From Euzebya pacifica (GTDB taxonomy: Bacteria; Actinomycetota; Nitriliruptoria; Euzebyales; Euzebyaceae): a stretch of 64,000 bases of DNA. The stretch covers positions 372,001 to 436,000 of the forward strand of contig NZ_CP031166.1 in the NCBI RefSeq assembly GCF_003344865.1, given 5' to 3'. Position numbers and translations under genes: made by a program. Below, piece by piece: positions 1-63,023 of the stretch (positions are counted from its first letter, which is position 1; every line of letters starts with the position of its first letter). The notes beneath the pieces are model-generated. The model saw only the letters and a program-made list of their open reading frames with translations. It did not search any database and was not told where the DNA came from.

Positions 1-358
1 TCCACCACTTGGCATACGTGGAGAACTTGTAGCCCCGCGTCCAATCGAAGCGATCCACCGCCTTGGTCAGACCGAAGATGCCCTCGTGGATGCAGTCGAT
101 GAGGTCAAGGTCCCCTCGGTACTGGCCCCGTTCGGCATGCTCCACGACGAGCAGCATGTTGGACTCGATCATCTTGGCCCGCGCCGACCGTCCGGCCTCG
201 ACAAGGCCGGCGAGCGAGGCTGCGTCGTCGCCTGCGGCGAGCCTGCGTGCTGCTTCGGCACCGACGGCGACCCGCTTGGCCAGATCGACCTGCTGCTCGT
301 GCGTGAGCAAGTCGGCGCGTCCCAGACGGTCGAAGAACAGGTCGTCGTAGATGGACAT
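1..358 (-). CDS. RNA polymerase sigma-70 family factor, N-terminal part (runs off the window)
   Basis: Reading leftward from ATG at 358 gives an open frame that leaves the window. Residues 1-40 (MSIYDDLFFDRLGRADLLT onward) resemble sigma region 1.2. The rest matches regions 2.1-2.3, with LDLIDCIHEGIFGLTKAVDRF followed by the region 2.3-type segment YKFSTYAKWW. The product would direct RNA polymerase to a promoter class. Whether it is a group 1, 2 or 3 factor cannot be judged without regions 3-4. It is divergent from the helicase gene at 476, leaving about 117 bp for both promoters. A GGGAG lies about 10 nt before the ATG. Confidence 0.9.
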   Translation of the reverse strand, partial: MSIYDDLFFDRLGRADLLTHEQQVDLAKRVAVGAEAARRLAAGDDAASLAGLVEAGRSARAKMIESNMLLVVEHAERGQYRGDLDLIDCIHEGIFGLTKAVDRFDWTRGYKFSTYAKWW

Positions 359-8481: not shown

Positions 8482-11412
8482 TCAGCAGGGCGGGAAGGCG
8501 CATCCGGTCGTGGTGGTGACCTGCTCGGAGTAGCCAGACGAGCTGTTGTTGCCACGGTCGATGGCGTAGGCGACCACCGTGTAGGTGTCGCCGGGTTGCA
8601 GCCCGGTGACCGTGGTCGAGTTGGTCCCTGTCACCGACCGTTCGGCGATTGTCTGTCCGGAGTCGTTGCGGATGATGACGAGTCGGTAGTGGTCCACGTC
8701 CGTGGATGGGGACTGCCCTGACACCCTGACGGTGAACCGGTCGGCGCTGATGCCGCTGAACGCAAGGTTCGTCGGTGGTGACGGCGGAGTGGTGTCGCCC
8801 GGGCTGGCGATGGCAGGGCCGATGTTGGCCGACCTGCGGTCGAACCCGTCGACGGTTTCGATGCGGTAGGAGTAGGTCTGGCCGTACACGGCGGTGGTGT
8901 CTGTGTAGGCAGTTCCGGTCACCCGCGCGAGAGAGGCGTTGTCGCGGTAGAGGATGTAGGCCCGCTGGTAGACCTCCGAGGCTGGTTGGCTGTGCTCCCA
9001 CTCGACCCTGATCCCGTCGTCGCCGGTGGAGTCGTCAGGGTCATCGACCAGGCCGATGGCGGTCAGGTTGTTGGGGGGCAGCAGGTCTCGGGCGTACACG
9101 TTGGCGCTGCCGGTCACTGCGGCGGTGTTGCCGGCCTTGTCGACTGCGGTGACAGTGATCGTGTAGGTCGGCACGTTGTCGAGTTGAAGCCTGACGAAGG
9201 CCGTTGTCGGGCCAACGGTCCGGGCAACGCCGTTGTAGCCGGAGGCCTGCGCCTCGATGACGTATTCAACGACGTCGTTGGACGACGAAAGGGTCCAGTT
9301 CAGGTTGGCCTCTCCCGGTCGTTCCGTCACTTGAAGGTTCGTTGGCGGCTCGGGGTCGATGGTGTCGATCTGTGACGCTGCGGACAGCCCGACCCAGCGG
9401 GAGAAGTTGCCGGCGGCGTCGTAGGCGCGGACCCGGTAGAAGTACTCGGTGCCCCAGCTGCCGGTGTCGTCAACGAAGCAGACGGGATAGTCTTCCTGCA
9501 CCGGGAACCCGGAGGTGTCGGGCGGACTGGCGACCTGCGAGGGGTCACACGCGTACGGTGGCTGTGAGCCTGGGATGTCGAACGTGGCGTCAACGGTGGC
9601 GTCGTCGAACTCCGAGAGGAGCCGCTGGACGGTGTAGCCGTCCAGATCGTTGGGGGCGAAGTCGCTGGGGTCCCAACCGATCGCGATGGCATCTTGGACG
9701 CCGCCGGCAAGGATCGACTCGGGCGGTTCGGGGCCGGTCTGGTCGGGTGCGGTCACCGGTCCGGCTTCAACCCAGGGGGAGGCCAACCCGTCAGCATCAA
9801 CCGCACGGATGCGGTAGCGGACCGGTTCGTTCTCCATCGGGTCGGTGTCGGTCCACTCCGTGGCGGCACCGGTGAGGGTGGCAACGGGATGCCATCCGGA
9901 TCGTGACGGGTTCGGCGCAACCGACATCCGCCAGATCTCGTAGCGTCGGACGTCGGAGGACACCGACTGCCTCCAGCGAAGCAGTGGATAGCCACCGGTG
10001 CCGATCTGGGCGCCGAAGGAGGTGGGTGGCGCCGGTGGTTCGTTGTCGGTCAGGACCGCCTCGATGGGCCCGGCAACACCGGAGGTTTCAACGCCACGAA
10101 CGGTCTGCACGGTGTACCGGTACGGCCTGCCCTGGACAAGAGGGCCGGGATCGACCCACGTCGTCGTGCTCGAGGGGACGGTAGCCACCTGGTTGCCATC
10201 CCGGACGATCCGGTAGGTGTCACCTGACTGGATGTCGCCAGGCTCATCCCAGGTGAGCCGAACCCGGTCGCTGCCCTCCTGCGCCCATGACAAGCCGGTC
10301 GGCCGTCCCGGCCCACCGGTGGCATCGGCGGTGGCCGACACCGCTGACGACGTGACCGACGACCGCTCGCCCCCTGCGGGGTCAACGGGATCTGGCCCAA
10401 CTGCGGTCAGCCAGTAACTGTAGGTCTCCCCCGGCTCGACACCGGTGTCGGTGTGGGACCCGCCCGGCTGCGCAACCCGTGCCACCTCGATGACGTTGGC
10501 AGCAACGCAGGTCGAGGGTGTGCAGGTTCCGTCGCCGCGCCACAGCACCGAATGGGTGACCCCGGCGCTGGCCGATGGGGTCCAACGCGCCTCGATGGAG
10601 GCCGGTGAGGCCAGCAGTTGCAGGCCTGATGGGGGCAGCAGCGCCGGAGGGGTCCCGGTGTAGGCCACCGATGGTTCGGATCGGTCGGACTCGCGGGCAG
10701 CCGTGAACGCCGAGACGGCGAACTCCACACCGGGACCCGACACGTCGACTGGTAGCCCCCCGTGGGTGTACTGATTGGTGCCCGAGACCCCTGACACGTT
10801 CCACACGTCGGTCGATCCGGCGTCCCGGTACCAGACCCTGTAGGACAACTGGCCGGAGTTGCCTGGGTCCCCCCAGGTGAGTTCGACCTGGTCATCTGTC
10901 ACCAGGCCTGACGGCTGTCCGGGAGGCACGAGTCCAGTTGCAGGCGCAGGAGGCGGGGAGGTCACGCCGGCAGGAATGACCGGAGCTCTGTTCGGGTGGT
11001 CACAATCCGCGTCGAAGATCGGGCCCTGGGCGCCGTCGTCGAGCACGATCAGCGTCCTGCAGACGAACCGTTCGTTGTCGACGTAGACCAACCGGTTCCA
11101 CATCGTTGACGGGTCAGCCCCGCTGTCACCGTTGAGGGCGTACAGATCAACGGTGCCGGGCAGATCAGCCGGAGCCTCCGCGATCGCCACATCGAGGTGG
11201 TCAGACGGGGAACCGGTGGCGGCCAACCTGATGGCGGTGTCTTCCACCGACCGCAGCGTGACGTCAATGGATCTCTCCTCGGTGCGGTCAACGAACACCC
11301 GGAACCCGGTTACAGCGATGGAGGCGATGATCGCACCGACAAGAATCGCCGCTGCGAGTTCAACGAGGGTGAACCCGCGACGCGCACGCGCGGGAGAAGC
11401 AAGCAGGACCAT
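8482..11412 (-). CDS. Large type IV prepilin-like protein with fibronectin-III repeats
   Basis: About 976 residues from ATG 11412. A type III signal ARARRG|FTLVELAAAILV gives mature Phe1 and Glu5, followed by the usual hydrophobic helix. Residues about 35-160 form a pilin-head module (SIDVTLRSVEDTA ...) shared with the pilins at 20824 and 27493. From about 170 onward roughly seven to eight fibronectin-III-like domains follow, each with PP/PT-N-L openings and Y-R-V strands. The last residues contain two Cys. The frame is open to 11505; 11412 is chosen because it gives a normal 13-residue leader, but no good ribosome-binding site is visible. It is likely a pilus-tip adhesin processed by the peptidase at 17189. 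Confidence 0.82.
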   Translation of the reverse strand: MVLLASPARARRGFTLVELAAAILVGAIIASIAVTGFRVFVDRTEERSIDVTLRSVEDTAIRLAATGSPSDHLDVAIAEAPADLPGTVDLYALNGDSGADPSTMWNRLVYVDNERFVCRTLIVLDDGAQGPIFDADCDHPNRAPVIPAGVTSPPPAPATGLVPPGQPSGLVTDDQVELTWGDPGNSGQLSYRVWYRDAGSTDVWNVSGVSGTNQYTHGGLPVDVSGPGVEFAVSAFTAARESDRSEPSVAYTGTPPALLPPSGLQLLASPASIEARWTPSASAGVTHSVLWRGDGTCTPSTCVAANVIEVARVAQPGGSHTDTGVEPGETYSYWLTAVGPDPVDPAGGERSSVTSSAVSATADATGGPGRPTGLSWAQEGSDRVRLTWDEPGDIQSGDTYRIVRDGNQVATVPSSTTTWVDPGPLVQGRPYRYTVQTVRGVETSGVAGPIEAVLTDNEPPAPPTSFGAQIGTGGYPLLRWRQSVSSDVRRYEIWRMSVAPNPSRSGWHPVATLTGAATEWTDTDPMENEPVRYRIRAVDADGLASPWVEAGPVTAPDQTGPEPPESILAGGVQDAIAIGWDPSDFAPNDLDGYTVQRLLSEFDDATVDATFDIPGSQPPYACDPSQVASPPDTSGFPVQEDYPVCFVDDTGSWGTEYFYRVRAYDAAGNFSRWVGLSAASQIDTIDPEPPTNLQVTERPGEANLNWTLSSSNDVVEYVIEAQASGYNGVARTVGPTTAFVRLQLDNVPTYTITVTAVDKAGNTAAVTGSANVYARDLLPPNNLTAIGLVDDPDDSTGDDGIRVEWEHSQPASEVYQRAYILYRDNASLARVTGTAYTDTTAVYGQTYSYRIETVDGFDRRSANIGPAIASPGDTTPPSPPTNLAFSGISADRFTVRVSGQSPSTDVDHYRLVIIRNDSGQTIAERSVTGTNSTTVTGLQPGDTYTVVAYAIDRGNNSSSGYSEQVTTTTGCAFPPC

Positions 11413-16224: not shown

Positions 16225-17181
16225 CTATCCCTGCTGGATCGCGGTGGAGAAGTTGCCTTGGCAGGCGGCAACCATGAACTCGTACAGGGGGGCTGCCGGG
16301 CTGGAGGGCCCACCAGGGTGGCGTTGCGCGTGCAAGTGGGGGGGCGTGTATCTGGCGTTGCCGGTGTTCCCCGTCGCCCCGAGCACCTGCCCGGCGACCA
16401 CCCTCTGCCCTGGCACCACACCGGGCGCGACGGCCGACAGGTGGGTGAGGTACCAGTAGATTCCGTCGTCATCGACCATGCGGACGGTGATGCCGCCCAG
16501 GCCGGTATCGGTGTAGGTGATCCGGTTGGTGACGCCGTCGCGCGGGGCCAACAGGGGCGTGCCGATGCTGGCGAACATGTCCAGACCCTTGTGGGTCCGT
16601 CCTCCCGACCGCGGGAACCCCCAGTCGTTGATGAACCGGACGGGGCCACCGACGGGGCAGACGTACCCGCCGCCTTGCGACAGGCCCGTGCCGATCCCGA
16701 CCGTGTCGCCGGTCGCGGGGTTGGCGAACGCGAGAGGGTCGGCGTCCAGCGGCGCGGTCAGCAGCGTCTCGGGGACCGGGGGTGCATCGGTGGTCCCGCC
16801 GGCGATGTCGAACCACGTGGCGGCTTGATCCAGTGCGTCGGGCACGGCCGCTGCGGCCGCGCTCTGCAACTCCACGGTGGCCACGTACAGGTCGATGTCG
16901 AGCTGGGCGGCCCGCTGCTCGTAGTGGTCGGCGACCAACGGTTCGGTGACGTCGGCGGTGCCGGGCAGCAGGCTGTCGAGCGCTGCGATGCGGCTCATGG
17001 CGTGACGGTGGTCCAACGTCAACGCCTGCGACCGCTCGAGCAGTTCGGCAACGGTCAGGTCGCTGCCTGACGGCCCGAGGCCGGATGCCCCACCGTCGGT
17101 GTGGTCGTCGTCCGCGGTCGCCGGCAACCCGGCGAACACGACGACCAGGGCGATGGCTGCGATGGCGAGGGTTCGGGTCAT
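16225..17181 (-). CDS. Secreted M23-family (LytM) peptidase
   Basis: 318 residues. A signal peptide (MTRTLAIAAIALVVVFAG ... ATADD) is followed by a helical region (40-130) and an M23 domain (about 175-310). Metal ligands are visible as THKGLD (His197, Asp201) and HLH (282-284), with YWYLTHLS near 247 supplying the catalytic His region. These enzymes cleave peptidoglycan cross-bridges. The start is 7 nt after the stop of the prepilin peptidase, so the two are cotranscribed. The enzyme may open the wall for the pilus, which is inference. All key residues seem present. Confidence 0.87.
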   Translation of the reverse strand: MTRTLAIAAIALVVVFAGLPATADDDHTDGGASGLGPSGSDLTVAELLERSQALTLDHRHAMSRIAALDSLLPGTADVTEPLVADHYEQRAAQLDIDLYVATVELQSAAAAAVPDALDQAATWFDIAGGTTDAPPVPETLLTAPLDADPLAFANPATGDTVGIGTGLSQGGGYVCPVGGPVRFINDWGFPRSGGRTHKGLDMFASIGTPLLAPRDGVTNRITYTDTGLGGITVRMVDDDGIYWYLTHLSAVAPGVVPGQRVVAGQVLGATGNTGNARYTPPHLHAQRHPGGPSSPAAPLYEFMVAACQGNFSTAIQQG

Positions 17182-17188
17182 CTGGGGC

Positions 17189-18274
17189 TCACAGGTTCGC
17201 GATGGTCAAGGCCTGTGCGACGACGGGCATGGCGAGGACCGGCCCGACCGTCCAGGCCGGAACGGCGGGAAGTGCGACGCCGAGCATTGACTGCCCGGTG
17301 GCGCGGGTCGTCCACCAGGCGGTGCCGATGAACGTCACCCCCCAGACGGCCATCACCAGCGCGGTGGCCAGGCCAACGCCGAGCAGGCCGGTGCCGGTGG
17401 TCGCAAGCGCCAAGGGGACCCCGGCGAGCAACGGCATGACGAGGGTGTCGCCGAGTCCGTGACCTTCCACCCCCCGGCGGTTGCGGATCACGGCTCCGCC
17501 CGCCTCGTGGACGCCGATGATGAGCGCGACGGCACCGATGGCCGCAGGGTTGACCGCTGCGGCGTTGGAGGCGACGAGGGCGCCCACAGCGACGACTGTG
17601 ACGGCCGCCCAGATCTTGGCGATCCCGGTGTCGACCCACGCGGTCGCCCAGTCGATGACCGCCAGCAGGAGGCCGCCGGCGACGAACGGGATGAGTGCGG
17701 CGGCGGCGGCCACCCCGGCCTGTGTCGCGATGACACCGGTCAGGCCGGCGGCGACGACGGCACCGGCGGTGATGGCACCGGCGGGCGGGTTCCAGGCTGC
17801 GCGGACCAGCGGCCGTTCGAACCGTTCCTGCGGGTCATCGGCGGTGTTGGCCACGACCGTTTCGATCCGTCCGGTGAGTTGCCGGCCGGTGTGGGCGGCG
17901 AGCAGGCAGTCCAGCGCGAGGGAGTCGCGCGGGTCACCGGACACAGCCACGGCACGCAACTCGGCAACGTCGGCGGCGTGGGTGTCGGCGTCGGCCGCCT
18001 CTGCGACGCCGGCAGGGAACTCACTCGGGACCCCGGCTCCTCCGTTGACGGCACGGTGCAGGTCGCGGTGCTCGGGGAGGCTGAACACGTCGCCGTCGAC
18101 GCTGATTGCGTCGTTTCCGGCTAGGTCAGCGCAGGCGATGTAGGCGGCGAGGTAGCGGGCTTCAGCGGTGGTGTTGGTGTCCACCGGCACGTGGGGCAGG
18201 CGTCGTCCGGCGTACCGCACGGCGGTAGCGCCGCTCATGGCGGCAAGGAGAACGGCAAGAAGGGCAGCGGTCAC
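17189..18274 (-). CDS. pilD: Divergent prepilin peptidase (A24/PilD-like) with a large insertion
   Basis: 361 residues from GTG 18274. The N-terminal helix ends in AVRYAGRRLP, matching the PilD N-x-V-x-Y-R-x-P turn. The two aspartates of A24 enzymes fit LLAVIDWATAWVD (about 210) and GHGLGDTLV (about 275), with several membrane helices from about 165 onward. The enzyme would cleave leaders after the RG of the prepilins and may methylate Phe1. Between the first helix and the rest lie about 130 soluble residues instead of the usual short CxxC loop. A promoter motif precedes the start. Assignment rests on motif order, so other A24-like enzymes remain possible. Confidence 0.72.
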   Translation of the reverse strand: MTAALLAVLLAAMSGATAVRYAGRRLPHVPVDTNTTAEARYLAAYIACADLAGNDAISVDGDVFSLPEHRDLHRAVNGGAGVPSEFPAGVAEAADADTHAADVAELRAVAVSGDPRDSLALDCLLAAHTGRQLTGRIETVVANTADDPQERFERPLVRAAWNPPAGAITAGAVVAAGLTGVIATQAGVAAAAALIPFVAGGLLLAVIDWATAWVDTGIAKIWAAVTVVAVGALVASNAAAVNPAAIGAVALIIGVHEAGGAVIRNRRGVEGHGLGDTLVMPLLAGVPLALATTGTGLLGVGLATALVMAVWGVTFIGTAWWTTRATGQSMLGVALPAVPAWTVGPVLAMPVVAQALTIANL

Positions 18275-18309: not shown

Positions 18310-20553
18310 TCAGGCTGCGGCCTTCTTGGCGGCCCTGGCGGCTTCGCGCTGCGCCTTGGCGACCTTCCAGTGGGCGTTGCACAGCCCGCCCTTGGCCCAC
18401 TTGCCGGTGCAGCCGTCCTTGGTGCAGTCGGCACGCTCCGACTCGATTCCCGTTGGGGTACCCGTGCGGTACCAGCGGGAGTGGTGCCGCTTGCACCATC
18501 CCATCGCCGAGTGTTCCTCGCCGCACTTGACGCCGTCCTCGATCACCGAGCAGCCCTTGTCGTCGGTCTTGACGACGGTGCGCTTCTTCCGCTTGGCCTT
18601 GGTCGCGGGACGACGGCTGCGGCGACGCTTGGGGGGCTCAGGGATGTCCACCGGCTGGATGGCTTCGACGGCTGCGGCAACGGCGGCCGCGTCGGTGCCT
18701 GCGGCACGTGCGGTCTGGGCACTGGCCTGCTTGGCCTGCAGCGCCGCAGCGAACGCGGCCTCCATGATCGCGACGGGTTCGAACACCAGCCGGGCGCGGC
18801 CGTGCCGGTAGGCGGTCTCCTCACCGGCCGCCCACTCCTCGAGCCTCTCGATGATGTCGACGAGCGTGTCGGCGGCGTCCTCGCACGCGGACGCGGCGAT
18901 CCGGGCGATGTTGGCGGTGTTGGCGGCGTCAGCGGCGTCCTTGCGGGCGACGTCGGCGGCGTCCCCGGTGGCGGTCGCGGCGGCGGCGCGGGCACGTTCG
19001 GCGCGTGCCTGCTGCTCGGCGTGGATGCCGCGGACCTCGTCGGCCATGTCGCGAACGCGCTGGTATGCGCCGGTGGCCGCCTTGGTCGCGGGGGCGTACA
19101 GCGCGTCGGTCGGTGGGATCTTGCCGGTCATCACCATCTTGACGGTCATCGCGATCCACTTGACCTCCTCGGAGGAGATCTTCATGCGGTCGGCGACCTT
19201 GTCGATGCGCTGCTGCGGGGTGCCGGACTCCGGCGGTCCGCCGTGGCCCAGGAGCCACCGGGCGACGTAGGCCTGGCGCTCCGACAGTCGCGCCGACTTG
19301 GCGTCAGCCAGGATGGGGGTGCCGTCGGTGAGGTGGCTGGGGTCCGCCAGGGCCCCTTCGATCTCGCGGCGCAGAACGGGGTGTCGCATGATGCTCAGGG
19401 CTCGATTCCTCTGTCCTCCGGCCCAGGTGCGGGACCGGTCGTAGGTCTGTCCGATCGTTGAGAGGTCCTGCGGCTCGTAGCCGCCGAGTCCGTGGTTGCG
19501 CTGGAGGATGTCGCGCAGTTCGGGGTCCAGGACCTTGGTCATGATCTCGTCGACCTTGGCGAGGGTGTCGAGGTACTCGACGACCTCCACCGGACCGGCT
19601 GCGGTGTCGGCGGTCAGGTCGAGGTACTCGTCGCCGTCGTCGCCGCCGGCGGTGGCGTTGAGGCTGACGGTGCTGGTCGGCATCAGGACCTGTGCCACGG
19701 CCTGCTTGTTGACAAGGATCGGCTTGGGTCGCCGGGCGAGGCGGTCGACGACGAGTCCGTGGAGGGTTTCGTCGTGGGGGTGCAGACCCGTTTCGTTCTC
19801 CACCCGCTCAGCGGTCTTGAGGATCGCCCGCTTGGCCTTGAACGCGGCACGGGTCAGGTGGGGGTGCTCGTTGCTCCACACCTCGTCGCGGACCTGGTCA
19901 AGCATCCGGAAGTGCGCGTGGGATGACAGGGGGGCCTGGTTGGGGTCGTAGCTGTCGAGGGCGATCATCATCCCGAGCCGGGCGGCCTGCAGCAGGTCGT
20001 CCCATTCGGTCGTGGCACCGTGCCGCCAGACACGCGCCCGCTTGTTGGCCAACGGGCCGGCCCCCAACGCGAAGATCGAGGTGACCGCCTCGTTCAGTTC
20101 GATGTCGGCGAAGCGGGTGCGCTGCTGCTCGGGGGTGGCGTCCACGGCGGCGCGGACGGCGAGCCACCAGCGGGCGGAGGCCCGCAGCAACGCGTGGTCG
20201 GTCACGCTGGTCAGGCACGACACGACGGCGTGTCGGCGCAGCCGCTGCCGGTCAGACGCGCTGATGGTGTCACCGATGATGAGCGCGGCGTACTCGTCGA
20301 TGGCGGCCCCGGCGCGTAGGCCCACGGTGGTGACGTCGAAGCGGTCACCCCGGAGGTGCCCGTTGATTCCGTCGAGGTCACCGAGGTCGGCGTCGGCGGG
20401 GTCGCTGATCCGGTCGTTGCCGATGACGGTGTCGGCGATGCGGCGGATCTCCGGCGAGGTGTCGGCCTTGGCCGATGCCCGCTCGATCGCGGCGACAGCG
20501 AGCGCGTCGCCAACAACTTGCTGCGTCCAGTCTTGGATGTCGTCGTTCTTCAT
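18310..20553 (-). CDS. Large sigma-70-like factor with Cys/His-rich C-terminal tail
   Basis: 747 residues. A sigma region 2-like segment spans about 165-225 (WDDLLQAARLGMMIALDSYD), region 3 about 230-290, and region 4 about 335-395 (LRDILQRNHGLGGYEPQDL then DRSRTWAGGQRNRALSIM). Residues 1-160 are an unusual helical N-terminus. After region 4 come about 350 extra residues: an Ala-rich coiled coil (to about 640), a basic linker (KRRRSRRPATKAKRKKR), then CSVIEDGVKCGEEHSAMGWC and a second Cys/His set ending GLCNAHW. The whole is far longer than normal sigma factors. It could be a sigma factor fused to nucleic-acid-binding zinc knuckles, or a sigma-derived DNA-binding protein. GAAGG precedes the ATG. 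Confidence 0.8.
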   Translation of the reverse strand: MKNDDIQDWTQQVVGDALAVAAIERASAKADTSPEIRRIADTVIGNDRISDPADADLGDLDGINGHLRGDRFDVTTVGLRAGAAIDEYAALIIGDTISASDRQRLRRHAVVSCLTSVTDHALLRASARWWLAVRAAVDATPEQQRTRFADIELNEAVTSIFALGAGPLANKRARVWRHGATTEWDDLLQAARLGMMIALDSYDPNQAPLSSHAHFRMLDQVRDEVWSNEHPHLTRAAFKAKRAILKTAERVENETGLHPHDETLHGLVVDRLARRPKPILVNKQAVAQVLMPTSTVSLNATAGGDDGDEYLDLTADTAAGPVEVVEYLDTLAKVDEIMTKVLDPELRDILQRNHGLGGYEPQDLSTIGQTYDRSRTWAGGQRNRALSIMRHPVLRREIEGALADPSHLTDGTPILADAKSARLSERQAYVARWLLGHGGPPESGTPQQRIDKVADRMKISSEEVKWIAMTVKMVMTGKIPPTDALYAPATKAATGAYQRVRDMADEVRGIHAEQQARAERARAAAATATGDAADVARKDAADAANTANIARIAASACEDAADTLVDIIERLEEWAAGEETAYRHGRARLVFEPVAIMEAAFAAALQAKQASAQTARAAGTDAAAVAAAVEAIQPVDIPEPPKRRRSRRPATKAKRKKRTVVKTDDKGCSVIEDGVKCGEEHSAMGWCKRHHSRWYRTGTPTGIESERADCTKDGCTGKWAKGGLCNAHWKVAKAQREAARAAKKAAA

Positions 20554-20823: not shown

Positions 20824-21303
20824 TCAGTCTCCGAAGGGGCCGCCGGCGATGACGTCGGTAGCCTCACAGGCACCGAAATCGACATCCCCTGGCCGCCGCC
20901 CAGTCGGGTCCACCTCAAGGGCCGCGCAGGACCCGAACCGCAGCAGCACCACCCTGCCGTCCCCCAACGACGGGGCGTCCCGCACAACGACCAGACGGAA
21001 CCGCTGCTCCTCCTCCACCGCCAGCGCCAGTTCCTGCTCCGGGATCGTGATCGTGTCCGCGACCACGGTCAGCAGGTGCTCTGCGGGGTTGCCGGACTGC
21101 GACTGCCGGGCTCGCGCCCGCGCTTCCAAGTCGATGGCACGCAACGTCGTGTCCACGTAGTTGTCACGCGCAGCGTCCGCCGGTTCGCGCAACAGCCCGT
21201 ATGACACCGACGTCAGAATCCCCACCACGACCAGGACCACCGCAAGTTGAACGATCTCCACACCTCTGGTGCGGCGCCGGCGTGCAAGTCGGGTCAGGTT
21301 CAT
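20824..21303 (-). CDS. Prepilin-like protein with Gln at position 5
   Basis: 159 residues from ATG 21303. The leader MNLTRLARRRRTRG is followed by VEIVQLAVVLVVVGIL, so the mature protein would begin Val-Glu-Ile-Val-Gln. The usual Glu5 is replaced by Gln and Phe1 by Val. The head (DNYVDTTLRAIDLEARARA ... TITIPEQELA) aligns by eye with the heads of the giant pilins at 8482 and 27493. Pilins without Glu5 are known at filament tips (GspK type). A promoter motif sits 5 nt before the start. Confidence 0.75.
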   Translation of the reverse strand: MNLTRLARRRRTRGVEIVQLAVVLVVVGILTSVSYGLLREPADAARDNYVDTTLRAIDLEARARARQSQSGNPAEHLLTVVADTITIPEQELALAVEEEQRFRLVVVRDAPSLGDGRVVLLRFGSCAALEVDPTGRRPGDVDFGACEATDVIAGGPFGD

Positions 21304-27492: not shown

Positions 27493-30400
27493 TCATGGCC
27501 GGTCGGGATAGTCCCGGCCGAACTCATCACTAGCGAAGTTGTTCGCTTGGCACGCGGCGCTGGTGCACTGCTCCGGATAGCCAGAACTGCTGTACTCAGG
27601 CCACGACCAGTTCGGCTCGGCAAGGGGCCACGGGTCCGGGATCGGGTTGTCGACCAGGGTGGGGAGTCGGATCGCGTCCGGATTGGAGGGAGTACCGTCG
27701 CCAGAGACAGTGGCGTACTGCGCCGAGCTGTTGTTTGCCACACACAGCGCCGTGCCGTCGTTGCCACGCCCGACTCCACCCCCCCAGCTGGGCCCGTTGG
27801 TCCGGGTCGTCCCCGAAGGACAGCTGATCTGCCCATACCCGTTCGGGTCGGACAGGTCGTAGCTGCCCACGAGAGCAGGGCCACCGGCAGCAGATCCGAA
27901 ACCCGCGCCCCAGTTGTAGAAGCCGCGGTGGGACTGACCGACCCAGGTGCCGCCGTCACCGAAGCCGGTGTAGGGGTTGCCACCGAGATCGGTGTAGCAG
28001 AAGGTCGTGCCATCGTTGCTGGGGGTCCATTCGCCGCCAGGGGTGACGATGCTGCCGCAGGTGACTCCGGAGTCGGAACGGACGCCGACGTTCTGGGTGA
28101 CCGAGTACGTCGGCGTCTCCCTGGTGTTCTGATACCTCAGTGCCCACGCCGACCGTCCGGTGCAGTTGATGGCGTTCGCCGCGTCCGGGCACGACTGGAT
28201 CGTGGTGTTGCTGAGTCGTCCGGTGGTGGTGCTGAGGCTGTCGGCGGCGTCGGTCCAGGGCATGCATTCGTCGCCGGACCGGTCAGGGTGACAGGACACG
28301 ACCTGCAGGTGGTAGATCTCGCCGTAGGGGGCACCGACGTCGGGCAGGTTGTTGCCGGTGGAGGCCATGAGTTCGCTGTTGAACCGGACGTCGCCGTCCC
28401 GGTCGACGTAGCGGTAGCGGAAGTAGGTGGCACCGGTGCCGTTGCCGTTGAAGCGGCTGTCGCGGATCTCTGCGATCCAGACGGAGGGGTCGGGGCCGCG
28501 CGGGTTGTTCTGGGCGATGCCGACGATGGGGTTGGTTGGTGGGGTGAGGTCGAGGATGGTGTCGGTGATGTCGGCCCATGGGCCTCGGTTGCCGTACTTG
28601 TCGGTGGATGCGGCGCAGAAGGCGTGGTTGGTGTTCTGTTCGTAGGGTCCGAGGTCGTCGTGGAGGCCGTGACGGTCGCTGTTGACTTCCGTGGTGCCGG
28701 TTGGGCAGGCGGCGGTGTTGTCGGCGGATCGGACCTGCACGGTCGATTGGGTCTGGCCGCCGGCGATCTGTTGGCCGGGCCAGGTGCGGATGTCGGCGCG
28801 GAAGGCTTCGGGGGTGTCGGTGGTGATGGTGGGGAGGCCGCCTTCGTGGGAGCACAGGGTGTCGTGGAAGCGGGTGCCGCCGGTGGGGGCGTCGCGTTCC
28901 AGGAGCGTCGGGTGGCCTTCGGGGTCGACGGGGATGACGGCCTGGTAGCCCCACGTGTCGTCTGGTGGGGCGGGGAGGGTGTGGGTGTTGCCGGTGACTT
29001 GGTTGCCGGTGGGTGTGAGGTTGGCGGGGGTGTCGCAGCGGTTGGTGGCTGTCTGGATCTGGTAGGTGGCGTCGGTGGCGAGGCCGTTGTTGAGACCGCC
29101 GTCGTCGAGGTCGGTGGTGTCGGGCCAGGTCAGGTTGATGGGGCCGTCCAACGGGGTGGTGTTGGTGGTCCGGACGATGGTGGGTCGGGCCCATGGTTCG
29201 GCTCGGCCGGTCTGGGCCCAGGCGGATGTGTTGCGGGCCGTGTCGATGGAACGGACCCGGTAGACGAAGGACTGTGCCGGGTCGAGGGTGCCCGGCAGCA
29301 GGTGGCCGTTTCGGCTCCCGGCGGGTTGGCCGTGCCAGTAGTTGTTGGTGGTGGTGGTGCAGCCGGTGGCGGCGTTGGTGCCGGGCACGGGCACCCACAG
29401 CGCGGGGTCGTTGAACGCCGAATCCGGTTGGTTGTGTCCAACGGCGATGTACTCAACGCGGTAGCAGAGGAAGTCGCCGTCAGGGTCAGTGGATGCGACG
29501 TCACGCCACACGACGTGAGTGGAGTGCTCCAGGGACTTGACCGCTGCGACGCGGTTGGCCGGCAGACCTCCGGGGGGTGTGGAGTCGGGGCACGGACCGA
29601 AGCCGGGGGTGTCGCAGTCGGGTTCGGGGCATGCCGGCATCCCGGGGTCACCGCAACCGGCGGTCGTGCCTGGGGGTTGACCGGAGCCGTCGCAGGACAC
29701 GTCGGGGACGTCGATGCGCAAGACGTTGCCGGCGTGGTCGGTGGCCTCGAGTCGGTAGTCCCACACCTCATTGCATCCGGTGGCGGTCGATCCGTCGTCG
29801 GAGTAGGGGCCACCGGGGCGACCGCGCGAGTCGAGGGCGGTGTCGGAGTACACCGTCTCGACCTGCCCGACGCTGTGGCCGGGGCACGGGTTGTTCTCGC
29901 AGGAGTCGAATGTGCGTGTGACCCGGATGGAGTTCAGGGCCGCGAAGTCGTCCGCTGCCCCGTCGAAGGACCAGAGGATGTCGGATTGGCCGTCGACATC
30001 GGTGTCGGAGATGGGTTGGACGTGGAAGTCGTGGACGGTGGGGTCGGTGTGGTCGTCGGGGGTGGAGCAGCCGGGCTGGCCGAGTGAGGTGCCGTTTGCG
30101 GTCCATGCCGAGTAGTTGTCGATCGCTTGGCGCGGGTGGTCGGCGGCGTTGTCGAAGGCGCGGACCCGGTAGCAGTAGGTGGTTCCCCAGTACAGACCGC
30201 CGGATCCGGGGGTGTGCCATGAGGTCTGGGTGATGCTGGTCGTGCCCGGTGGAAGCACGACGAACTGGTCGTTACCTGGGGCGCCACCGACGGTGTAGAG
30301 CTGTGGGCCGGCGGGGTCGGTGGCACCGTTGGAGTACCGGGAGACCTCGTAGCCGCCGATGCCTGAGTAGTCATCGATGGAGTCGGGCCAATCGATGAGG

Positions 30401-33360
30401 ATGCGGCGTTCGCCCTCATCGGCACCGGGGGTCGGCGGCGTGGCGGTCTGCAAGGCACCGTCGGACGGGGTCAGGGCCGTGGTCCCCTGGGTGGTGCTGT
30501 TCCACGACCCAGAGCCCGCCACGAGCGGGTAGGTGTCGTAGCCGGCGGGTGGGGCGGCACCGGGACTGATGGGGTCGTAGAGGTCCAGCGCGATGCCGTC
30601 GGCAGAGCTGCCGGTGGTGGCGTTGCCTTCCCGGTCAACGGCGGTCACCCGGTAGTCGTAGAGCCGCAACCAGGGCATGTCGCCGTCGTCGTCGGCATCG
30701 ACTGCATCGGAGTCGCCCGGTGGGAACGGGTTGGTGTCCCACAGGTTGAATGGGCCGGGTGGCTGGCGACGGTCGATGTCGTAGCGGTCCATGCCGGACT
30801 GGCGCGGGTGTTCCTGCGTGTCGGGCCAGTCGAGGTCGAGCTGGCGGTGGGCCTCCTCAACGACCAGGTCGGGGTCGGGTTGGGGGTCGAAGTCGTCTTG
30901 CGTTTCGATGCAGCCCTCAGGGGTCGCGCCGTCCCCGACGGCGTCGAACAGCGCGAACCAGGAGCGGTTCCCGACGGTGTCGTAGGCCTGGACGCGGTAG
31001 CAGTAGATCCAGCCCCACTCGACGGTGTCGTCGGTGAACCGTTCGTCGTCGGGGTCGACCGGAGGGGTGAGGGTTCCCCATTCGGCCGGGTCGTTGAAGC
31101 AGGGGTCGACCGGTGACCCGACGGGGGTGTCGCACCGTTCGAGGATGAACGTGGCTCCGGTGAGGTCGAACGCGGGACCGACGTCCCAGGTGAGGTCGAC
31201 GTCGTGGGCGGGCAGCAGCGGGTTGTCGCTGGACGGGTTGCGGGGGACGTCGACGGCCTGCCGGTCGACGGGAAGCGGCGGTGCGGTGGTGTCGATGGTC
31301 ACCTGGTTGGAGGTGATGCGCCCGGAGGTGTTGCCTGCGGCATCAACGGCGTAGACGTCGAAGACGTAGTCGCCGTCGAGGACGTCAACGAGGACGATGC
31401 TGGTGGTGTTGGGGTTGAAGTCGCCGAGGGGTAGACCGGGGTCGGGTGTGAGGCGGATCCCGTTGGCCTCGACCCGGACGGCGTTGCGGTCGGGGTCGAC
31501 TGGCAGGGTCCAGCGGACCTCGATCTCGTTGTTGATCGGGTAGCGGGGGGTGAGGGGGTACTGGACCTCGGTGCAGGCCGGCGCGTCGGTGCAGCCGCCC
31601 GGTGGGGTGAACGGGTAGCCGGCCGGTGGGGTGTAGCGGCCTGAGTCGTCGGCAACGACGGTGGTGGGCTGGTCCGGGCCGGGGGAGACGGTTTCGTCTG
31701 CGGCGGTGACGCCCTCGTGGTCGTGGACGGTGGCAATGACGTTGCCGACGTCGATGGGGTCGACGGTGTCGCCGAGGCGGGCGGATGCGGGTCCGGCCCA
31801 GTCAGACGGGGTGAGCCCGTCGACGATTGCACGGACCCGATAGGAGTAGGTGATGCCGAACTCGGGGCGCGGCAGGGTTGCGGCGGCGTCCTCGGTGTCG
31901 TTGATGTCGAGGTCCTCGGCTCCGGTGGCGTCACCGGGAGTGGTGCCGAGCGGCTGCCAGTTGGTGGTGCCGGCCTCGGCACGGTGGATCTCGTATCGGT
32001 CGATCTCCGGGGTGTCGGAGGCCTCCCAGACCACATGGATGTCGTCGCCCTGGCCGTCGGGTGCGGCGATGGGGTTGCGGGGCGGCAGGACGATCCCGCC
32101 TGCTTGCGGGGTGCCGGTGGCCTGTCCTTCGGGGCCAATCTGTTCCGATGCGGTGCCGGGGCCGCGGACACCTCGGACGAACACGGTGTAGGGGGTGCCG
32201 TTGGTGAGGCCGTCGAAGACGTAGCTGGTGGTTTGCACCCGGATGGGGCCGCGAGGCGCACCGGAGCCGGCCCCGTCGATGCGGATGTCGTAGGCGCCGA
32301 TGTTCTGCTCTGCGGGCAGCGGGTCCCAGTCGACGGCAAGGGTGGCGTTGGACGGGACGAGGGTCGGGTTGGGGGCGGTGATGTCGGCGGCGCCGGGTGT
32401 TGCCTGGTCGCAGCCGGGAGCGGACCGGCCAGCGTTGTTGATCGCCACGACACAGAAGTCGTGGATGCTGTCGGGCAGTCCGTTGATGGTCGAACTCAGC
32501 GTGTCTGCGGGGACGGTCTCGTGGACCCGTGCGGGCGCGTCGCTGTTGGGGTCGTCGTAGGAGATCTCGAAGGCCGATGCCTCACCGGTCCCTGCGGTCG
32601 GTGGGGTCGGTGGGGTCGGTGGGGTCGGCGGGACGTAGGTGGAGTCGCGGCAGCCGTCGCCATTGGTGTCGGTGAGGAAGGTCGGCGGTGGTGGCGGGTC
32701 GCACACTCCGGGGCTGCCGGGGCTGCCAGGGGTACCAGGGCTGCCAGCAACGGCCGCGGCGGGGGTCCACGTCACGTTGACGGAGCCTGGTCCCGCTGCG
32801 GGGGTGGCAGTGACCGCCGGGGTGCCGGGCGGGTCGGGGTTGAACAGCGGCGAGGGGGCGAACTCGCCGGGCTCGCAACCGATGAACCCGTCGGTGTCGG
32901 TGGCGATGATCGCCTGGATTTCGGGGTCGGTGGAGCCCAGGAACTCTTCGAGGCTGTAGATGGTGCCCTGCCCACCGTTGCTGCCGTCGAGCACGAGGAC
33001 GCGGCACTGCTCGTACCGGTGGGCGTACACCACACCGTTGCCAATGTCTGCGATGACAGGGGAGGCTGTGCCCTCGTCGATCTCCTCCTGCGGGATCACG
33101 ACCGTTCCGGCTGCTTGGAACAGCTGGCTTGCCGGGTCTGACCCGTCGCCCTCGACCGCGTCGACGCTGTCGGCCTGGGCGACCTGTTCGACCTGCCGCA
33201 GCGTCGCGTCAATCGAGTGGGCCTCGCCGCGTCGGGACACCAGCTGGAAGGTGGTGACGGCGATCGCGGCGATGATGCCGATGATCGCCACGCCGGCGGC
33301 GAGTTCGATGAGCGTGAATCCGCGGGGCGAGCGGGGGTTCGGGGTACGGCTGGAAAGCAC
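27493..33360 (-). CDS. Giant type IV prepilin-like protein with many fibronectin-III domains
   Basis: 1955 residues. GTG 33360 is fixed by GGAGG 5 nt upstream and a 13-residue leader VLSSRTPNPRSPRG|FTLIELAAGV with Glu5. The pilin head (about 15-180: SIDATLRQVEQVAQA, VVIPQEEID) is shared with the pilins at 8482 and 20824. A collagen-like stretch (GSPGTPGSPGSPG) and PPT repeats lead into about ten or more fibronectin-III-like units (PGSVNVTWTP, NEIEVRWTLP, HDVDLTWDVG, RILIDWPDSI and others). The last 400 residues are Cys/Gly/Trp-rich with a different composition, perhaps an adhesive tip domain. It is far larger than normal pilins and is likely assembled at the filament tip. Confidence 0.85.
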   Translation of the reverse strand: MLSSRTPNPRSPRGFTLIELAAGVAIIGIIAAIAVTTFQLVSRRGEAHSIDATLRQVEQVAQADSVDAVEGDGSDPASQLFQAAGTVVIPQEEIDEGTASPVIADIGNGVVYAHRYEQCRVLVLDGSNGGQGTIYSLEEFLGSTDPEIQAIIATDTDGFIGCEPGEFAPSPLFNPDPPGTPAVTATPAAGPGSVNVTWTPAAAVAGSPGTPGSPGSPGVCDPPPPPTFLTDTNGDGCRDSTYVPPTPPTPPTPPTAGTGEASAFEISYDDPNSDAPARVHETVPADTLSSTINGLPDSIHDFCVVAINNAGRSAPGCDQATPGAADITAPNPTLVPSNATLAVDWDPLPAEQNIGAYDIRIDGAGSGAPRGPIRVQTTSYVFDGLTNGTPYTVFVRGVRGPGTASEQIGPEGQATGTPQAGGIVLPPRNPIAAPDGQGDDIHVVWEASDTPEIDRYEIHRAEAGTTNWQPLGTTPGDATGAEDLDINDTEDAAATLPRPEFGITYSYRVRAIVDGLTPSDWAGPASARLGDTVDPIDVGNVIATVHDHEGVTAADETVSPGPDQPTTVVADDSGRYTPPAGYPFTPPGGCTDAPACTEVQYPLTPRYPINNEIEVRWTLPVDPDRNAVRVEANGIRLTPDPGLPLGDFNPNTTSIVLVDVLDGDYVFDVYAVDAAGNTSGRITSNQVTIDTTAPPLPVDRQAVDVPRNPSSDNPLLPAHDVDLTWDVGPAFDLTGATFILERCDTPVGSPVDPCFNDPAEWGTLTPPVDPDDERFTDDTVEWGWIYCYRVQAYDTVGNRSWFALFDAVGDGATPEGCIETQDDFDPQPDPDLVVEEAHRQLDLDWPDTQEHPRQSGMDRYDIDRRQPPGPFNLWDTNPFPPGDSDAVDADDDGDMPWLRLYDYRVTAVDREGNATTGSSADGIALDLYDPISPGAAPPAGYDTYPLVAGSGSWNSTTQGTTALTPSDGALQTATPPTPGADEGERRILIDWPDSIDDYSGIGGYEVSRYSNGATDPAGPQLYTVGGAPGNDQFVVLPPGTTSITQTSWHTPGSGGLYWGTTYCYRVRAFDNAADHPRQAIDNYSAWTANGTSLGQPGCSTPDDHTDPTVHDFHVQPISDTDVDGQSDILWSFDGAADDFAALNSIRVTRTFDSCENNPCPGHSVGQVETVYSDTALDSRGRPGGPYSDDGSTATGCNEVWDYRLEATDHAGNVLRIDVPDVSCDGSGQPPGTTAGCGDPGMPACPEPDCDTPGFGPCPDSTPPGGLPANRVAAVKSLEHSTHVVWRDVASTDPDGDFLCYRVEYIAVGHNQPDSAFNDPALWVPVPGTNAATGCTTTTNNYWHGQPAGSRNGHLLPGTLDPAQSFVYRVRSIDTARNTSAWAQTGRAEPWARPTIVRTTNTTPLDGPINLTWPDTTDLDDGGLNNGLATDATYQIQTATNRCDTPANLTPTGNQVTGNTHTLPAPPDDTWGYQAVIPVDPEGHPTLLERDAPTGGTRFHDTLCSHEGGLPTITTDTPEAFRADIRTWPGQQIAGGQTQSTVQVRSADNTAACPTGTTEVNSDRHGLHDDLGPYEQNTNHAFCAASTDKYGNRGPWADITDTILDLTPPTNPIVGIAQNNPRGPDPSVWIAEIRDSRFNGNGTGATYFRYRYVDRDGDVRFNSELMASTGNNLPDVGAPYGEIYHLQVVSCHPDRSGDECMPWTDAADSLSTTTGRLSNTTIQSCPDAANAINCTGRSAWALRYQNTRETPTYSVTQNVGVRSDSGVTCGSIVTPGGEWTPSNDGTTFCYTDLGGNPYTGFGDGGTWVGQSHRGFYNWGAGFGSAAGGPALVGSYDLSDPNGYGQISCPSGTTRTNGPSWGGGVGRGNDGTALCVANNSSAQYATVSGDGTPSNPDAIRLPTLVDNPIPDPWPLAEPNWSWPEYSSSGYPEQCTSAACQANNFASDEFGRDYPDRP
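32596..32631 (-). repeat. 9-bp tandem repeat encoding Pro-Pro-Thr
   Basis: Four copies of GGTCGGTGG (last copy GGTCGGCGG) in the giant prepilin gene, coding for a PPT linker after the pilin head. Confidence 0.75.
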
Positions 33361-61709: not shown

Positions 61710-63023
61710 TCAGTACCGAGGGTCCTCGTAGTCCACGTCGGCGCTCTCGATTCCCCGGAGGGCGTCGCGACGGGCGGCGTGCACCACGTCACCGGGGTCA
61801 GACGCCGGCCGGACGATCGAGCCGCTCCATCTGGCCGACTCGCCCGAACCGTTCTCCCAGGAGGCCTCGATGTCCCAGACGGTCCGCTCGGGGCCGTCGT
61901 CCCCGGCGCACGTGACGGTGATCGTCAGGTCGCCTTCGCTGTCGTTGAAGGCGTGCGGGTGCGCCCAGTCGGTGGCCCACTCGGCGATCGGGAGTGTTCC
62001 GCCGTTGCGTGTCGGCCCGCCGATGCCGGGGACATAGCCCCACACCCTCCCGTCGTGGTCAGCGGTGGTCGGCCGTCCCCAACGGTCCCCGTCACGGTTG
62101 GCCGGTTCGTACGGTTCGCCGCTTGCCCGGTGGTTGCCGTCCCGGTCCCAGCCGAGCCGGTCGAACCCCTGCCGGTCATAGCCGTCGGTGTCGCGTCCAC
62201 TGCGGTCGAATCCATCCGGACCGAACCGGGTGCCGGTGTCACGATGCGTTCCAGAGGAGTGCCAGCCATGCCGGTCGTGGCCATCGGGATCCCGTCCGTA
62301 CCGGTCGATGCCCTGCGCATCGCGACCGTGGACGTCGTAGCCCTTGTCGTCCCGTGTGGTGCCGTTGCGGTGGTGGCCGTCGCGGGTGAACCCGGTGCGA
62401 GTGTGGAAGCCGTCGCGCCGGTAGCCCTCGGCGTCAATGCCGCGCCGGTCAAAACCGTCGGGCCCGTAGATGGTGCCGGTATCGCGGTGGACATCACGTC
62501 CACGGCGAGTAGGTGAGTCGTGCCGGTCGTTGGCGTCACCGCCGGGCCACCCACCGACGGTCTTCCATCCTGCCCGGTTGAAGCCGTCGGGGTCCCGGTA
62601 GCTGCCGGTGTCGGGGTGGACGGTCTCGGCGGTGTCGGGCCAGCGTCCCCAGGCCACCCCGCGGCTGTTGTGGGACCCGTGGATGGTGATCCAGCCGTCC
62701 GGTTCCGGAGTGATGTCGTTGACGATCCACTCGATGCGGATGCGGTCTCGGACGTGGTCCCGGCCGAACAGGTGAGACTTGGCGGCGATGACTTCGTCGG
62801 ACGCGGCTTGGGCCTGGCGGAAGTCCTCGATGTCGCTGGGGCGCATCGCCGGTTGTGATCCGGTGGCGAACGGATCGGGCATGACCGTGGCGTTCGCCGC
62901 GGGGCGGGTGGCAACGGCAACTGCGGCCGGTGCGTGCTCGGCACCGCAGCGGCCCTTGATGCCGATGCGCTTGGAGCATCGACTGCCGTCCTTGAGGGGT
63001 TGGTTGCACGGTCTCGTTGCCAT
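61710..63023 (-). CDS. Gly-Asp-aromatic repeat protein with N-terminal Cys/His motif
   Basis: 437 residues. The N-terminus CNQPLKDGSRCSKRIGIKGR continues into CGAEH, a Cys/His set like those at the tail of the sigma factor at 18310. Residues about 135-300 are built from five-residue units of the form G-aromatic-D-R-x (GYDRQGFDRLGWDRDG), arranged in blocks that each restart with a HRDTG..GPDGFDR-type sequence. Such pentads occur in some bacterial and phage proteins and may make a repetitive beta structure. The C-terminal 110 residues are non-repetitive (DLTITVTCAGDDGPERTVWD). The function is unknown. Confidence 0.7.
   Translation of the reverse strand: MATRPCNQPLKDGSRCSKRIGIKGRCGAEHAPAAVAVATRPAANATVMPDPFATGSQPAMRPSDIEDFRQAQAASDEVIAAKSHLFGRDHVRDRIRIEWIVNDITPEPDGWITIHGSHNSRGVAWGRWPDTAETVHPDTGSYRDPDGFNRAGWKTVGGWPGGDANDRHDSPTRRGRDVHRDTGTIYGPDGFDRRGIDAEGYRRDGFHTRTGFTRDGHHRNGTTRDDKGYDVHGRDAQGIDRYGRDPDGHDRHGWHSSGTHRDTGTRFGPDGFDRSGRDTDGYDRQGFDRLGWDRDGNHRASGEPYEPANRDGDRWGRPTTADHDGRVWGYVPGIGGPTRNGGTLPIAEWATDWAHPHAFNDSEGDLTITVTCAGDDGPERTVWDIEASWENGSGESARWSGSIVRPASDPGDVVHAARRDALRGIESADVDYEDPRY

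Follow-up and report, generated by a model that had tools for sequence, protein, structure and literature searches.

A Divergent Sigma-70-Family Protein with a Mobile-Nuclease-Type Zinc-Finger Tail on the Second Replicon of Euzebya pacifica

The reverse strand of a Euzebya pacifica replicon encodes a 747-residue protein that, judged by its sequence and predicted fold, is a highly divergent member of the sigma-70 family, and that continues beyond its sigma domain into a long tail ending in two Cys/His fingers of the kind carried by mobile-element nucleases. We read this protein as a plasmid-specific alternative sigma factor that may use the fingers as a second, DNA-anchoring arm, a reading to which we assign a probability of about 0.45. 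Tailed sigma factors as such are already known, and the unusual point is a tail of this kind outside the ECF type; a non-ECF sigma with mobile-nuclease fingers was not found elsewhere in the databases, genomes or literature searched.

Results

The window, meaning the whole 64,000-nucleotide stretch of DNA that was analyzed, covers positions 372001–436000 of the second contig (C2) of a two-contig, 6.37 Mb assembly. C2 measures 571,580 bp (~572 kb) beside a chromosome of 5.80 Mb, which places the locus on a separate replicon that is most likely a megaplasmid. The frame under study consists of 747 codons with an ATG start and zero internal stops, and its codon-position GC (0.70/0.51/0.90) is as expected for a coding frame; the open reading frame is real, and its anatomy is largely that given in a preliminary description of this DNA, which had a sigma-type domain followed by a helical, basic and finger-bearing tail and which needs correction in the extent of the former and the name of the fingers. 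The features are as follows (window positions; (-) denotes the reverse strand).

18310..20553 (-), whole open reading frame, divergent sigma-70-family protein with zinc-finger tail, 747 aa
20059..20553 (-), N-terminal part, residues 1–165, helical in a low-confidence model (pLDDT about 32–78)
19732..20058 (-), sigma region 2, residues 166–274, FliA/SigB-like (NCBIfam matches, alignment, pLDDT mostly in the 80s at 181–230)
19966..20001 (-), core-binding helix 2.2 'DDLLQAARLGMM', residues 185–196 (alignment)
19891..19932 (-), region 2.3/2.4 'PLSSHAHFRMLDQV', residues 208–221, replacing TYATWWIRQA of principal sigmas (alignment)
19594..19731 (-), region 3.1–3.2 and linker, residues 275–320, conserved 'SLN...GGDDGDEY' (alignment; low pLDDT)
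19342..19593 (-), sigma region 4, residues 321–404, RpoD-like (NCBIfam RpoD models; pLDDT 86–96 at 331–390)
19384..19431 (-), recognition helix 4.2, residues 375–390 (alignment; predicted helix at 375–390)
19129..19320 (-), extra three-helix, helix-turn-helix-like segment, residues 412–475 (AlphaFold2)
18634..19113 (-), Ala-rich helical stalk, residues 481–640 (composition; AlphaFold2 helices)
18559..18633 (-), basic linker, residues 641–665 (net charge +11; low pLDDT)
18481..18552 (-), predicted zinc finger 1, C668, C677, C687, H690 (or H691) (phrog_5351, phrog_1271; ligands invariant)
18370..18426 (-), predicted zinc finger 2, C710, C715, C725, H728 (phrog_5351, phrog_1271; ligands invariant)

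Sigma regions 2, 3 and 4 had been placed in the first 400 residues. They are recognizable there, if weakly, and a multiple alignment covers regions 2.1–4.2 at residues ~165–404; that placement was slightly generous, since residues 1–165 are not recognizably sigma and gave only a chance-level match, and no family, in Pfam. Pfam matches to region 2 (E 0.0012), region 4 (E 0.052) and likewise region 3 all fall below the gathering cut-offs. Among NCBIfam models, RpoD_Cterm (E 5.9e-7) and cyanoRpoD (1.7e-7) match residues 246–398 and 283–390, respectively, and FliA, FliA_WhiG and SigBFG match region 2 only (residues 167–264). Alignments give 22–28% identity to principal-type sigmas with all regions 2.1–4.2 in order, and the nearest PDB sequences are RpoS chains (best E 4.8e-5). 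By its sequence the protein thus belongs to the sigma-70 family, regions 2, 3 and 4 following one another in that order; region 2 is nearest to FliA/SigB types and regions 3–4 are nearest to RpoD types. It is not an ECF sigma: the best models are those of RpoD, RpoS and FliA, the ECF model scores 16.5 bits against a cut-off of 42.9, and a region 3/3.2 segment is present, unlike in ECF (group 4) sigmas.

The marks of group 1/2 sigmas are absent as well. The principal-sigma stretch 'STYATWWIRQA' aligns with 'SSHAHFRMLDQ', with loss of the WW dyad, and the −35 helix 'TRERIRQ' of the relatives has become 'SRTWAGG'. In helix 2.2, the positions of which we take to correspond to D403, Q406, E407, N409 and M413 in E. 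coli sigma-70 numbering, the equivalents of D403, Q406 and M413 are kept, while E407 is replaced by A and N409 by R; FliA-like relatives in the alignment also lack this glutamate. The tree branch leading to the protein is extremely long, at 5.66 changes per column.

AlphaFold2 was run on residues 1–500 with an alignment of related sigmas (mean pLDDT 62.7, pTM 0.35) and on residues 395–747 with an alignment of related fingers (mean pLDDT 72.9). Sigma4 is well predicted and sigma2 partly so, the N-terminus and region 3 being poorly predicted. Each of the 50 Foldseek matches listed for the sigma model is either a sigma subunit or an initiation complex of RNA polymerase; the best has E 1.6e-7, and a second structural comparison gave a Z of about 11. 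This fold match is supporting and not independent, as the input alignment itself contained sigmas, and the rmsd of about 20 Å arises from domains whose relative positions the model does not fix. The tail model gave no significant Foldseek match in the PDB, only generic long helices, which is no proof of a new fold.

The tail opens with a segment predicted as helices at 412–434, 446–457 and 461–475 (block pLDDT about 52–84), for which Pfam contains no matching family. The Ala-rich coiled coil, basic linker and two Cys/His clusters of the preliminary description are borne out in composition, charge and spacing. Alanine makes up 31–38% across the stalk, with helices predicted at 482–527, 530–584 and 591–617; lysine and arginine together account for 52% of the linker; and the clusters read C668-x8-C677-x9-C687-x2-H690 and C710-x4-C715-x9-C725-x2-H728. 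Both are of the C3H type and are modeled in blocks mostly at pLDDT 83–97. The term 'zinc knuckle' is a misnomer for what are fingers of the C-x4(8)-C-x9-C-x2-H mobile-nuclease type.

These fingers match the N-terminal, non-catalytic part of the phage HNH endonuclease families phrog_5351 and phrog_1271, the tail alone scoring E 1.9e-8 against phrog_5351 and carrying the tandem-finger signature GWCxxH(Y/H)xRW; Pfam detects no HNH catalytic domain in the 747-residue protein. All eight zinc-ligand positions are invariant across 12 sequences (the sigma tail and 11 viral homologues), which argues that the clusters are not a product of chance. A scan of viral contigs returned 34 loci with the module, and there the fingers precede HNH, LAGLIDADG or EndoVII nucleases: HNH_3 is found in 16 of the 31 distinct viral finger ORFs, the remaining ones include HNH, EndoVII, zf-His_Me_endon or LAGLIDADG domains, and Zf_WRKY19 is matched by 10 of the 31. 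Annotated phage matches are likewise mostly HNH endonucleases. On the Streptomyces plasmids NZ_CP114037 and NZ_CP109206 the same finger type occurs on recombinase/integrase proteins ('site-specific integrase' among the annotations), and by eye it is also seen on a recombinase-like protein from another genome (G091:C542). This occurrence on recombinases and integrases points to a module used generally by mobile elements to recognize DNA.

In the E. pacifica genome three further carriers are present, all on C2 (9% of the genome); the chromosome (91%) has none at E<0.05. The pair of N-terminal fingers on a C5 cytosine DNA methyltransferase (C2:450171-452009) is most closely related to the sigma tail, at 46% identity; C2:545306 encodes another finger protein and C2:505861 a small array of fingers. 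The long C-x8-C loop of finger 1 recurs in two other C2 proteins. Within the window, a 437-aa protein (61710-63023 (-)) has a Cys/His finger (CNQPLKDGSRCSKRIGIKGRCGAEH) at its N-terminus; long 'RDxDGxDRxG' repeats rich in D, G, H and R come after it, and Pfam gives no match. With the module otherwise residing on nucleases, recombinases and a DNA methyltransferase, DNA, one of the ligands proposed earlier for the tail, appears the likeliest one.

Searches of 66 class genomes (E 1e-11), 396 phylum genomes (E 1e-12), plasmids (PLSDB), phages and viral contigs, and pattern scans of GTDB, turned up no full-length relative, negatives that are limited by sensitivity and sampling. The GTDB scan returned 55 sigma relatives, the named ones mainly Nitriliruptorales. 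In 28 that were examined the frame ends 0–60 aa past the sigma domain, except in relatives whose own match broke off early, within region 2, and none has such a tail. The finger occurs at E<=1e-7 in 16 of 246 phylum genomes, among which no other sigma–finger fusion was seen; of the two other large finger frames, both judged by eye, one has multiple fingers but no sigma domain and the other resembles a recombinase.

The gene belongs to a large cluster resembling those of type IV pili, with T2SSE ATPases, T2SSF, PilM and pilins, and the genes next to it are the following.

17189..18274 (-), next downstream gene, 361-aa membrane protein (35-nt gap; GLGD motif by eye)
16225..17181 (-), second downstream gene, M23 peptidase (7-nt gap; Pfam PF01551, E 2.5e-16)
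20824..21297 (-), upstream pilin-like gene (N-terminal segment; no Pfam match)

The 361-aa membrane protein has no Pfam match and no relative in the 66 class genomes; its sequence would possibly fit a highly divergent prepilin peptidase. Copies of the retraction/assembly ATPase in other genomes of the class are distantly related to the plasmid one (<=45% identity). Two giant pilin-like ORFs, at 27493-33360 (-) and 8482-11412 (-), encode 1955 and 976 aa; each has a pilin-type segment at the N-terminus and looks built of repeats over the long stretch that follows.

At least five genes of the sigma-70 family lie on C2, each with a long branch in the tree, and fast divergence thus seems common to the sigmas of this replicon. 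One is a 290-aa RpoD-like sigma at window positions 1-358 (-), continuing to C2:371486, with a FliA/SigF-like gene alongside (C2:369520-370470). Its recognition helix 'GEWAGRHKRN' resembles by eye the 'RTWAGGQRN' of the 747-aa protein; as a subfamily mark the 'WAG' shared with this gene (C2:371486-372358) was rejected, with a chance-level score against the 747-aa protein and both proteins unplaced in the tree. A further degenerate plasmid sigma is seen in a 467-aa ORF at C2:520316-521719, which has a very decayed region 2 (Pfam only E 0.05) and bears the region 3.2-like motif 'SLDRPVGDSDGSTYLRD'.

The protein had also been put forward as a reader of a CGACC motif, which the counts do not support. 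CGACC occurs 291 times against 294 expected and GGTCG 378 against 434, the intergenic frequency of CGACC (0.0112) is close to the genic one (0.0103), and its densest cluster was reached in 18 of 60 simulations. The palindrome GGTCGACC is seen 10 times with 6.2 expected, a count as high being given by 10 of 100 shuffles, and the spaced form CGACC-N7-CGACC occurs 8 times against 1.65 expected, mostly inside coding frames. As CGACC is not enriched overall or between genes, we set aside the identity of a CGACC-reading regulator. A search for a sigma-70 promoter consensus near the 747-aa gene returned none, and no DNA motif for this sigma was found.

Discussion

The main doubt is whether the 747-aa sequence still works as a sigma factor. 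It may be a rapidly evolving sigma-70-family protein of the plasmid that serves as an element-specific alternative sigma factor, in which sigma2 and sigma4 would dock on core RNA polymerase, sigma2 would open the promoter in the manner of FliA/SigB without the WW dyad, and the altered −35 helix would read a non-consensus element or touch DNA only weakly. The tail, with its helix-turn-helix-like segment, stalk, +11 linker and two C3H fingers, we infer to be a second DNA-binding arm, probably acquired from a mobile-element nuclease-type module, that would anchor the holoenzyme beside chosen megaplasmid promoters. Its targets would plausibly include the downstream putative peptidase and M23 genes and the surrounding type IV pilus cluster. 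In favor of this reading are the sigma homology and fold matches, the D, Q and M positions kept in helix 2.2, the other carriers of the finger module and their location on C2, the divergent sigmas of that replicon and the short gaps to the downstream genes. Against it stand the sub-threshold Pfam matches, the changed promoter contacts and long branch, the dependence of the fold match on its input alignment, the lack of any orthologue that would reveal purifying selection on fold or fingers, and the failure to find a DNA motif for the protein.

Changed promoter contacts and an extremely long branch would also fit loss of sigma function. The sigma fold would then no longer initiate transcription and would persist as an adaptor that binds DNA or RNA polymerase, the fingers giving DNA specificity, for instance as a co-regulator, an anti-RNA-polymerase factor or a plasmid architectural protein. 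We hold this to be somewhat unlikely: the lost WW dyad and −35 contacts, the sub-threshold Pfam scores, and the even more decayed sigma-like ORF at C2:520316-521719 all speak for it, yet FliA- and ECF-type sigmas function without the WW dyad, sigma4 is confidently modeled and regions 2.1–4.2 are all present in order. That the plasmid merely harbors a decaying sigma paralogue to which a mobile finger module was added by chance, with no specific role, has little chance of being right. Zero orthologues among the 66 class and 396 phylum genomes and the long branch are what such decay would leave. Against it, the 747-codon frame shows undamaged codon bias (GC3 0.90), has lost none of its eight zinc ligands and is followed closely by the downstream genes.

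It is also quite improbable, in our judgment, that the protein is a sigma whose tail regulates or senses, through redox or metal sensing by the Cys/His residues or partner binding by the Ala-rich part, as in CorE/ECF238 or ECF42, instead of serving as a DNA arm. C-terminal regulatory extensions are common in ECF sigmas, some being Cys-rich sensors of metals and others tails with zinc fingers (PMC8999054, PMC5826349); the fingers found here, however, are not of ZAS or CRD type, have their homologues on nucleases, recombinases and a methyltransferase, and are preceded by the strongly basic linker.

Returning to the alternative sigma with a finger arm, one could suppose that promoter choice lies mainly with the tethered arm, derived from mobile nucleases and recognizing a site outside the −35/−10 boxes, and that the megaplasmid in this way runs its own promoters; we regard this as unlikely. 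The other C2 finger proteins (the C5 methyltransferase and the finger arrays) might read related sites. Should the arm model be true, a bacterial sigma would have gained an extra modular DNA-reading domain through domain capture, and a mobile element with a private transcription program would have a natural example. Within a single plasmid, an unnamed, widespread mobile-nuclease finger would be tied both to transcription and to the methylation of DNA, making the binding specificity of the finger testable.

Comparison with Known Systems

Sigma factors with such tails had been described as not a standard class. This is too strong, since regulatory extensions are known from at least 26 groups of ECF sigmas, among them a zinc finger in ECF52 and a Cys-rich domain in CorE/ECF238 (PMC8999054, PMC5826349). 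What stands is that this tail on a non-ECF sigma is unusual. Like the protein described here, ECF52 (SCO4117) and CorE/ECF238 combine a sigma with a long C-terminal extension bearing Cys/His metal-binding motifs (PMC5826349, PMC8999054). Both are ECF sigmas without region 3, however, ECF52 having a ZAS-like finger with transmembrane and carbohydrate-binding parts and CorE a Cys-rich domain, whereas the present tail is built of Ala-rich helices and mobile-nuclease fingers.

Group 1/2 RpoD/SigA sigmas, such as the Nitriliruptorales paralogues (for example L083–L109), align end to end over regions 2.1–4.2 and most closely over 3.2–4.2; they differ in that here the WW dyad and −35 helix contacts are changed, the N-terminus is unrecognizable and a long tail is present. 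To the group 3 sigmas FliA, SigB and SigF the likeness lies in region 2, which fits best with the FliA, WhiG and SigBFG models and also matches FliA-like proteins of Pantoea and Erwinia, but regions 3.2–4 are RpoD-like here, with a longer 'HGLGGYEP' loop and, again, the tail. The phage and mobile HNH finger module (phrog_5351/phrog_1271; related to Pfam Zf_WRKY19 and DUF5763) shares the two tandem fingers and the 'GWCxxHxxRWxxxG' motif, and differs in that it is placed here on the C-terminus of a sigma and not on a nuclease, with a longer C-x8-C loop in finger 1.
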